DNA of 64,000 bases, from positions 36,615,039-36,679,038 of the forward strand of contig OZ020487.1 in the NCBI GenBank assembly GCA_963971405.1, read 5' to 3'. Made by a program: the position numbers and the translations under genes. The notes beneath the pieces were generated by a model. That model was not told the DNA's origin. It saw nothing but the letters and a program-made list of their open reading frames with translations, and did not search any database. Below, one piece after another: positions 10,119 through 34,045 of this stretch (its first letter is position 1; every line of letters begins with the position of its first letter). Source of the stretch: Psococerastis gibbosa. Lineage: Eukaryota; Arthropoda; Insecta; Psocodea; Psocidae.

Positions 10119-10190
10119 GGGCTTGTGGTCCAGCGGTTAAGACGACACCCCGGTTAGGCGTAAATCGTGGGTTCGAATCCCGCCAAGCCC
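10119..10190 (+). tRNA. tRNA-like sequence (pseudogene or SINE head)
   Basis: 72 nt fold into a cloverleaf. The 7-bp acceptor stem is perfect (GGGCTTG with CAAGCCC). The T stem pairs GTGGG with CCCGC around TTCGAAT. The A-box-like TGGTCCAGCGG and B-box GGTTCGAATCC are intact. A T run follows at 10193-10198, compatible with pol III termination. The anticodon arm has an A-C mismatch, position 33 is C where T is nearly invariant, and the would-be anticodon GGT (Thr) is unusual in eukaryotes. I infer a pseudogene or tRNA-derived retroposon over a working tRNA. No CCA is encoded. Confidence 0.55.
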
Positions 10191-10625
10191 AGTTTTTTCC
10201 ATATCCTCTAATTTCGGTTAACCAATGTTTCTATCGTAGTCCATGAATATTTACTGTTAGCTAAGACTTTTACTTTCATATTTCTATTTCTATTCTAGCT
10301 AACTCTGCCATAGGTAAGTGACCGCCAAACTATGGGTATACCCCAAGTATAGATTTGATGCATTGTATCTTAGTCTTAATACCGAGAGCATAGATACGGT
10401 GAAAAGTGAGGTTTTGAGCTGAGAATAAGTAAACTGAATGAAGGAAATAGGCACTGTAGTAGCACGGTAGTTTTCGTTTGTGAAATCAAAAGTTATTTAC
10501 TGTCAAATGTATAGATCCCCACTATTTCGGGCATACTTAGGTCATTCAACATCCCCCATCCCCCCACCCGGGGGAGACTTCGCCGTCATTAAATAAGAAC
10601 TTTCCAAACGGTTCGAGGTTCTAGA
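10191..10625. other. Intergenic, nothing recognised
   Basis: Contains a short C-rich tract near 10552-10575. No gene or repeat is supported. Confidence 0.35.
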
Positions 10626-29695: not shown

Positions 29696-30401
29696 ACTAC
29701 GGGTAATTCTCCGCACTGGGTACAATTTTTTACACTGAATCTTAAAAAAATTCAAATTGAATTTTAACATTGGAATGTAACCATTAGTTACGGGAGACCT
29801 CCTATAGTTCATCAAAAATAGTAATCAGGCTTAATAAAATTTATTTTAGTAAATTAATTAATCCGGCACGGGGTCTTACGTGACAGACGCTAGCGTGACA
29901 GACATCAGAAAACCACATGTTTTGACCAATATTCCTGTGAAATAGTAAAAAGAAAAAGTTATACGCTGATTAGATAGAGCAATAAATCGTATTGTTGTCC
30001 TGTATTATTAAAATGATTATATAATGATGTTTTATATTTGGTACATGAGGCGTGACAGACATCAGACGAAAAAAAGTACGCGCCGATTTTTTAATCAACT
30101 TTCCCCTAAAAAGATTGATAATTTAAGTAATTCGGTTAAGGAAACTTACGGATACGCGCCATTTCGTAGAACTGTAGTGATACCAACACAAGAAAACACA
30201 AATTGTCTTTAAATGGATTTTACAGGGAGTTCCAAAAAAGTGTGACCGTGTGACCGACGTTAGACGTTGGGTGGGGTCACCTGTTTGAAAATTAATAAAA
30301 TAAAAAATAGAACGTTTTCATCAAATAGTATTTCAAATAATTAATGCTTAATCTGTTCATAAATAATTAGATTACTCGTGACTTCGTGGTATTTCATTTT
30401 A

Positions 30402-30513
30402 ATAAACAAAAAATAACAAAAACTTAGAGTTTTAGAAAAACTTGTTATAACAACCCGAATTAGTAAAACCCAAATAATCGTTAAGAAATTAACTTTGTCT
30501 AAGAAACCCACTT
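30402..30513. repeat. Left arm of perfect 112-bp inverted repeat
   Basis: Identical in reverse complement to 30835-30946 as far as I can check by eye. The arms would form a long hairpin in single-stranded DNA or RNA with a loop of about 321 nt. Complete identity implies recent origin or ongoing gene conversion. Confidence 0.8.
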
Positions 30514-30636
30514 TTTTTTGAAAATGTTGAAATCAAAAGAGCTTTACACAATAGGGAAAAATTAACAAACGACATAACATTCACACAATCATCCCCTCTA
30601 ATAGATCTAGCTAGTAGGTTAGGAATAGGTAACCAG

Positions 30637-30712
30637 CCACGCCCCCTCCCACCCCCTCCTCCCCCCGCTCCCAGTCCTATATAAACCAAGGTTTCCTCTC
30701 CCTAGTCACATT
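30637..30712 (+). promoter_or_regulatory. Core-promoter-like segment in the hairpin loop
   Basis: A GC-box-like CCACGCCCCC (30638-30647) and a pyrimidine-rich C tract precede TATATAAA at 30678-30685. An initiator-like AGTCACATT follows, with its A at 30708, about 30 bp from the TATA start, the canonical metazoan spacing. GC content jumps relative to both sides. This is a pattern match only; no coding frame starts plausibly downstream. Confidence 0.4.
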
Positions 30713-30834
30713 TGCATCTTCTTCTCCTTGAGTTGAGCAAGTCTCAAATCGCAGATAAGGTGTAACTGTGCTAGTGGGTTTCCCTCTGTAGATGGCAGTT
30801 CTTGCCGAAAGCGCTCAGGGTTTTATACTAACAC

Positions 30835-30946
30835 AAGTGGGTTTCTTAGACAAAGTTAATTTCTTAACGATTATTTGGGTTTTACTAATTCGGGTTGTTA
30901 TAACAAGTTTTTCTAAAACTCTAAGTTTTTGTTATTTTTTGTTTAT
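30835..30946. repeat. Right arm of perfect 112-bp inverted repeat
   Basis: Partner of 30402-30513. It reads AAGTGGGTTTCTTAGACAAA at its inner edge and GTTTAT at its outer edge. Confidence 0.8.
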
Positions 30947-31419
30947 GCTTAATCTGTTGTAAGATTATCTAGTTGCAAGGACATTTGTTAATATTACTAT
31001 TAACTGTGCTGTTAATTTTTGAATCTTTGAAAATGGGGTTGCTACACGTGACAGACGTCAGAAATTGACCATTTCAAAGAGGAAATTAGGTAAAATGAAA
31101 AATTTTGTAGAAACATAATATACGTGAGGACACGGATAAAGAAGTCATTTAGTTGCTGCAATATCAAAATCAAGTTTTTTTGCAAAAGTATTGATGTTAT
31201 ACTGAAGCATCATCAATTGTACCCAGTGCGGAGAATTACCCACTACACATTAGTACTACTATAGTACTATTCCTAATTCTTGAATATATTTTCTTCTGAC
31301 ATAGAGGAGTTACGCAATTTTTGTCTATTAAAAAATGCCACCACAAATTATTTCTTTAAATCATGGCTAAAATCAAACTAGATACTAAGTTAATGATGTT
31401 GTTGTGGTGATAATGCTAA

Positions 31420-32525: not shown

Positions 32526-33117
32526 ACATCTAACATCTTTAGATAGAAGTAACACTGTAAGTAACACCCTAATATTTGGCAATTGTGCGGTGCAGAGCCA
32601 AAGGTCAAAGAAGTGCCGAAAATCCTAAAGCATTCAGTCATGATAATATGACACATCTTAACCATTTAAGAAGCCCAACTACTGATTGAGGCACTGTCTC
32701 TCCTCACCGCACCTGCACTGCACATCTTTACGGAGAAGTAACACAGTGCCTGCTTCTCCCTAAGATTTGGCAATTGTAATGCTTCGGTGCAGAGCCAAAG
32801 ATCAAAAAAGTGCCGAAAATTCTATGCCATTCAGTTCAGTCATGATAATATGACACATCTTAACCATTTAAGAAGCCTAACTACTGATTGAGGCACTGTC
32901 TTTCCTCACCGCACCTGCACTGCACATCTTTACGGAGAAGTAACACAGTGCCTGCTTCTCCCTAAGATTTGGCAATTGTAATGCTTCGGTGCAGAGCCAA
33001 AGATCAAAAAAGTGCCGAAAATTCTATGCCATTCAGTTCAGTCATGATAATATGACACATCGCTTAACCATTTAAGGAGCCTAACTACTGATTGAGGCAC
33101 TGTCTCTCCTGACTGCA
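32526..33117. repeat. Tandem repeat, ~200-bp unit, about three copies
   Basis: The word CAATTG followed by ...CGGTGCAGAGCCAAAG starts at 32580, 32771 and 32973 (spacings 191 and 202 bp). Each unit also contains CATGATAATATGACACATC, CTACTGATTGAGGCACTGTC and CCGCACCTGCACTGCAC. The second and third units are almost identical, pointing to recent expansion. No frame is kept across units. Confidence 0.8.
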
Positions 33118-34045
33118 CCTGCTTGACCACTAACTCACGAGACTGACAGTAGCCCAGATCTGGCTTAGTCACCACCCACTGTTTCGGTTATACCTCGAGA
33201 GCTTTCCGAGGTTTGAGTAGTTATTCTCTTAGCCATCAGATTGAACATCATCGCCTGGGAACCAGTTTACAGACAAATAAGAGCCATCACTTACAATATA
33301 ATGACGTTCTAGATCCCCCTTTCTTGGGAGCAGTTTTAGTTCTCATGATGGTAATGCCCATGGGTCTTCTTCCTCTTCAATTAGGACGTACTTTATGTTT
33401 GAAGGCTTTGGTGTTCATAAAGTGCACGTACAGTTAGCTGCTCATCCACGCGGCCTATCGAGTCGATTTCAGGCACGGTCTATCTGATTCACCCTGACAG
33501 AAGTGACTTCTAGATTGTGTCGGTCCTCAGTAGGGAATCATCGCCAGCACGATAGGCCCTTCATTGTATTCACAAGAATGTACCTGATGTGAACATTGCT
33601 ACGTGTGACGCACGATACAAGAGGTATTTAAGAGAAATTTACCTACAGTAGGATATTAATTTCTTTTGAAGTCAGCAGGCCTACTGTGTAGTAATAACTT
33701 ATTCCTGTGGTTAAAAATGTACACAGAACAATTTTGAATAGTTCATTCCATTCTAAAATTATATTGTTTAAATTTTTAATTCCAGGTTAGGATTAAAAAT
33801 AATCGCCATAGTAAGCCTGCAGGTACAAATATTGAGAACACAGTGATTTATTGGCCGCGCAGAACATTTCACTACATACTATAGGCAGCCCCCCCCCCCC
33901 GAAATAAAATCCTGGTTACAGGCCTGTATGCAAGTTACGAATATTTGCATACTTGGGAAGTACACCAAGTCTCCAGCACAATTAACATGTATGGTGCCGC
34001 CCCCCCTATACTCATGTATTTGGCAAGCACGCCAATGTTTGTGTA
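33118..34045. other. Intergenic; hAT-like end remnant near 33888
   Basis: At 33886-33930 a C run followed by GAAATAAAATCCTGGTTACAGGCCTG resembles the inner side of the CAWGGCCGTRMCCAGG family end, without a partner. Nothing else is recognised. Confidence 0.35.

Follow-up and report, generated by a model that had tools for sequence, protein, structure and literature searches.

The window, a 64-kb stretch of the genome of the psocid Psococerastis gibbosa, carries at 29701..31241 a DNA transposon, hereafter the shell, that measures ~0.94 kb without the insertion it contains. Its 27-bp terminal inverted repeats (TIRs; left, 29701..29727, plus strand; right, 31215..31241, minus strand) are complementary at 27 of 27 positions, and ACTAC lies immediately outside each of them (29696..29700 and 31242..31246). 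Searching the 409-Mb, 68-contig genome with the TIR 27-mer returned 43 matches at up to three mismatches, while a reversed control pattern returned 0, demonstrating that the TIR family is real. A preliminary description of this DNA had reported the perfect TIRs with ACTAC on both sides, proposed a mobile element and suggested such a genome search; the repeats and the mobility are borne out, and the TIR is not single-copy. Elsewhere in the window we found a tRNA-Thr (GGT) gene at 10119-10191, which is the sole Rfam match in the window at gathering thresholds, and a tandem repeat at 32588-33122 with a period of 202 bp, 2.7 copies and 94% matches.

The shell family was sampled at 28 loci besides the window (L015-L022 and L029-L048), whose aligned pieces are ~85-97% identical to the window copy; seven of these siblings are free of an insert and measure 893-938 bp (L015, L016, L029, L031, L032, L034 and L037). 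Exact 4-bp target duplications flank 11 of the 16 siblings in which both ends are well defined (TTAT, GTAT, TTAT, AGAT, ATTA, ATAT, ACCT, ATAT, ATAT, ATAT and ATAA), four of the remainder have one mismatch in 4 bp and one has two, and a 5-bp duplication occurs in 0 of 16. Excluded from this count were L017, L018, L020, L021 and L022 (which lack an end or have an imprecise one), L041-L046 (a single TIR within the fetched stretch) and L048 (which overlaps L035). Because 11 of 16 siblings have exactly 4 bp, the ACTAC of the window copy, the only one of 17 shell copies with 5 bp, is atypical of the family; it can be read as 5 bp or, under the 4-bp family rule, as ACTA plus an extra C, and the 5-bp duplication assumed earlier does not hold as a family trait. 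Inspection by eye of open frames from 11 sibling loci revealed no transposase, and Pfam scans of open frames from the window found a domain in 0 of 14 (4 + 10 frames). Accordingly we call the shell MITE-like: it is a non-autonomous DNA transposon that we place in no named superfamily, in agreement with the preliminary description, which recognized none from the TIR. We also rejected a Transib/RAG-type identity. Transposons of that type have 5-bp target duplications and a TIR starting CAC, whereas the shell TIR begins GGG and its siblings show the 4-bp pattern. The shell further contains four copies (76-100%) of a 17-nt motif, GCGTGACAGACATCAGA, at 29893-29909, 30050-30066, 30248-30264 and 31046-31062, which perhaps serve transposase binding or regulation. 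Two siblings hold insertions of other kinds: L035 has an RNase H-like open frame, recognized by eye, of another inserted element, and at L043:451-1875 a different insertion with a 262-codon, aspartate-rich open frame interrupts the shell copy.

Within the shell, the segments 30402..30513 (minus strand) and 30835..30946 (plus strand) are reverse complements identical at 112 of 112 bp (BLAST E 7e-54 in the window), just as the preliminary description had stated. What that description had overlooked is a 14-bp direct repeat, ATGCTTAATCTGTT, at 30344..30357 and 30945..30958 (both plus strand), which bounds a 587-bp insertion (30358..30944) holding both arms. The insertion consists of two outward-facing end pieces of a Penelope-like element (PLE) joined head to head. 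The left piece (30358..30513, minus strand, 156 nt) faces left and ends in a 44-nt tail (30358..30401, minus strand); the right piece (30513..30946, plus strand, 434 nt) faces right, is tailless, and its last two bases are ambiguous with the target duplication. When the PLE end is numbered outward (q1-q478), the insert reads as tailed q478-q323 joined to tailless q1-q434. In 10 of 10 sibling shells compared, among the 28 loci, the site is empty, with continuous sequence through ...AATTAATGCTTAATCTGTTGTAAG... and small differences, and the BLAST breakpoints of siblings against the window overlap by 17 nt. A genome search with the whole 1541-bp shell split in the same region, with query positions 1-657 and 1242-1541 matching one set of places, the TIR family, and 658-1246 another (40 of 1646 candidates were scored, and place counts are lower bounds). 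The hairpin is a PLE insertion inside a DNA transposon, and its two ends are copies of a single terminus, both facing outward, an arrangement that disposes of the replication hairpin suggested earlier. The suggestion of a nested foldback was half right: the 14-bp duplication and the empty sites in siblings confirm nesting, but the nested unit is a PLE insertion and not a foldback.

We assigned the insert family to the Penelope-like elements because its longer copies encode a reverse transcriptase (RT) and a GIY-YIG endonuclease. The open frame of one longer copy, L012, matched RVT_1 (E 4.5e-14) and GIY-YIG (E 1e-4; 23.0 bits against a cut-off of 22.6), and the PLE ORF has 649 homologues, many of them ~810 aa long among the best 120 of 649. 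The right piece of the window insert retains the final 56 codons for the PLE protein (30514..30681, plus strand), C-terminal and downstream of the GIY-YIG match, with 100% identity by tblastn to residues 449-504 of the L012 frame. At the other extreme of the ORF, the tail likely holds the main start codon (ATG at 30397-30395, minus strand, MKYHEVTSNLIIY...), because the predicted MKYHEVTSN... resembles by eye the homologue N-termini MSKFHKVT and MDFHQVT; BLAST E-values for this N-terminus against the homologues were not significant. The family thus displays RT and GIY-YIG in one ORF in longer copies, inverted pLTRs, a tail at one end and a target duplication with an empty site, and at L012:3658-4401 a pLTR is followed by the N-terminal part of the ORF, a partial tandem arrangement as in other PLEs. 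A 29-mer from the PLE end has 2171 genome matches at up to two mismatches, which points to a large, recent expansion. A parvovirus-like ITR was also considered, and was dropped once RT and GIY-YIG had been found in the longer copies.

Motifs in the pLTR together with the positions of inner ends predict that it carries a promoter. A putative promoter box, TATATAAA (30678..30685, plus strand), precedes an initiator-like TCACATT (30706..30712, plus strand), in which the predicted transcription start, A 30708, lies 30 nt on from position 30678. Among the 56 PLE pieces that were not truncated by the limits of the fetched stretch, 12 have inner ends at q193-199, coinciding with the predicted start, and 17 extend past the query, leaving no inner end visible. 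Junctions between the two pieces were listed for the 18 copies whose middle is short, leaving aside 10 in which it is long and four fetched as ends only. In most of these junctions the pieces are separated by 0-47 nt of filler or overlap by up to 15 nt.

The right piece also contains a hammerhead-ribozyme-like motif, identified by eye (30781..30820, plus strand), with stem I CCCU/AGGG, core CUGUAGA, stem II, GAAA and AGC/GCU. Its core is degenerate, departing from the hammerhead consensus CUGANGA, and the freely folded RNA falls short of a clean hammerhead. Rfam found no hammerhead match in the PLE element, where the single match at E up to 5 was a weak one to FtrA (E 2.8). The first 48 loci include 14 with the identical 40-mer, and the motif is possibly a relic. 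Cleavage is predicted after 30816, which is 25 nt into the frame of an upstream in-frame ATG (30792); the ribozyme of a lizard PLE cuts 26 nt into the ORF (PMC11167929).

Edge words shared by the two boundaries of two-ended PLE copies, scored as the longest exact word with shifts within 8 nt and therefore upper bounds, reach at least 11 bp in 28 of 32 copies (11 to 14 bp, and one of 19 bp in a C run). In the other 4 of 32 they are only 6-8 bp long; these are weak because random boundary pairs yield 6-7-bp words in 32 of 300 trials (at least 8 bp in 0 of 300), and some of them resemble by eye mutated longer words. Two-ended insertion is frequent and not universal, since 7 of 20 consecutive clusters (L049-L068) have a single end at the BLAST cut-off, three of them tailed (L054, L062 and L063) and four tailless (L049, L051, L058 and L068). 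Duplications of 11-12 bp flank L049, L058 and L068, in which the tailless end stands alone, and L051 shares an 11-bp edge word and has by eye an opposite tail-like piece of ~18 nt. No duplication was found at the boundaries tried for L054, L062 and L063, and the consulted part of PMC3846280 likewise describes Penelope copies without one. A single tailed end was also present in the fetched stretches of L023-L027, with a further piece cut by the stretch edge in L026.

We found that tailed and tailless ends are paired almost without exception: in 32 of 33 two-ended copies, exactly one end lies at q475-478 (tailed) and one at q429-442 (tailless), a result with p ~8e-9 under independent tailing of the two ends with a probability of one half each. 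The 33 copies comprise eight first loci, the most window-like (the window, L009-L014 and L028), 13 among the 20 consecutive contig-1 clusters (L049-L068), and 12 chosen as pairs, eight of which were fetched whole (L069-L076) and four as ends only (L077-L084); tail state played no part in selection. The exception, L012, lacks a duplication, and its right "tail" continues into the N-terminus of the PLE ORF (aa 22-171 of homologue P0005), so this side is an internal pLTR-ORF junction, not a second terminus. The pairing script takes outward pairs only; among 19 neighbouring PLE-end hits within 3.5 kb, drawn from 100 listed places of 2171, all exact matches on contig 1, 18 faced outward, one pointed the same way and 0 faced inward. 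The longer piece is the tailed one in 9 of 21 copies and the tailless one in 8 of 21, with 4 of 21 equal; the idea that the window insert is unusual in having the longer tailless piece was therefore discarded. Arms mismatch at 1.5% within copies (23 compared, nine identical) versus 2.1% between copies, and they share too few variants for one RNA template to be told from two.

These data lead us to conclude, with a probability of about 0.93, that a TIR transposon was later hit by a short insertion of an RT- and GIY-YIG-encoding PLE, presumably through double-strand target-primed reverse transcription. Acting probably as a dimer, the PLE protein would cut both target strands ~11-14 bp apart and leave 3' ends, both of which would prime reverse transcription of PLE RNA, internally, near the ORF start. 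Priming at the distal site on one strand would yield the 44-nt tail, and priming at the proximal site on the other a tailless end. The two cDNAs would then grow inward and halt at, or short of, the 5' end of the RNA, end joining would link them head to head, and fill-in of the overhangs would create the target duplication. The dimer, the order of these steps and the single start site per strand are what we infer. The structure of the copies fits the biochemistry of a lizard PLE protein: purified PAc from Anolis cleaves and extends both target strands and begins reverse transcription at two neighbouring internal positions, between which the tail lies (PMC11167929). In vitro, the top and bottom strands were reported to show no difference in start site (PMC11167929); in the genomic pairs the two ends of one insertion differ, which suggests an asymmetric complex. 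Whether labour is divided strictly, with the distal site used on one strand and the proximal site on the other in every two-ended insertion, we consider evenly balanced. If it is, the integration complex would be asymmetric, with differently docked dimer subunits or two enzymes on one RNA, and the "optional tail" would turn out to be an obligatory mark of double-strand target-primed reverse transcription.

The most serious competitor holds that a single cDNA snapped back and was copied, making the insert the product of one reverse-transcription event. Self-priming from palindromes at inverted junctions has been argued for PLEs in the consulted portion of PMC3846280, and in 4 of the 18 junctions listed (L055, L065, L074 and L075) the inner ends coincide or lie no more than 2 nt apart, with a palindromic-looking middle by eye in L055, L065 and L075. 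However, the inner ends differ by at least 58 nt in 14 of 18 junctions and by more than 100 nt in 10, those of the window lie at q323 and q1, and snap-back copying alone does not yield one tailed and one tailless end; we therefore judge this course of events unlikely. Perfect arms would also be expected if the inner repeat were a separate foldback or MITE transposing as DNA with 112-bp TIRs, and a flanking duplication fits that idea too, but arm lengths and inner ends vary among copies, the tail is confined to a single end and longer copies run into the RT/GIY-YIG ORF, so that such an element is highly improbable. The perfect arms could also reflect a local template-switch duplication or an assembly error, an account that we find barely credible for a terminus with thousands of genome matches, in an insert flanked by a target duplication at a site that siblings show empty. 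On our preferred reading, the supposed hairpin transposon is a natural record of Penelope insertion.

Both nested elements are of known kinds. Non-autonomous DNA transposons of the MITE type with 4-bp target duplications are an established category, and the shell resembles them in being short and in having TIRs and small AT-rich duplications; it differs in that its TIR, GGGTAATTCTCCGC..., was matched to no superfamily. L1 twin priming likewise places inverted segments of a single retroelement between paired target duplications, but there the 3' end forms one of the outer ends and the inverted part is 5', whereas both outer ends here are versions of one terminus. The closest parallels are endonuclease-containing PLEs, namely PAc (PMC11167929) and Pen2a_Av of Adineta vaga (PMC3846280). 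As far as the consulted parts of these reports go, they share with our family an ORF with RT and GIY-YIG, a pLTR with TATA box and initiator (here a predicted promoter), an inverted pLTR, a tail of ~30-44 nt at one end and a short target duplication; the hammerhead motif that such elements carry near the pLTR/ORF junction may survive here as a degenerate relic, for which Rfam gave no hammerhead match. Pen2a_Av has inverted pLTRs, a 31-bp tail and a 9-bp duplication, and because the same portion of PMC3846280 describes an inverted pLTR, an optional one-sided tail and 8-10-bp duplications for PLEs, the anatomy of the insert was already known. The present family differs in that 18 of 29 two-ended copies fetched whole consist of short end pieces, several of them ending at the predicted transcription start, and in that its duplications concentrate at 11-14 bp. 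How PLEs integrate is poorly understood, and the abundance of PLE ends in this genome offers statistics beyond in vitro work. A limited search of the PLE literature did not find one-tail pairing stated as a rule; in contrast to the optional tail of the texts consulted, the tail here occurs at exactly one end in nearly every two-ended copy, and this near-absolute pairing of tailed and tailless ends is what our counts add to those descriptions.
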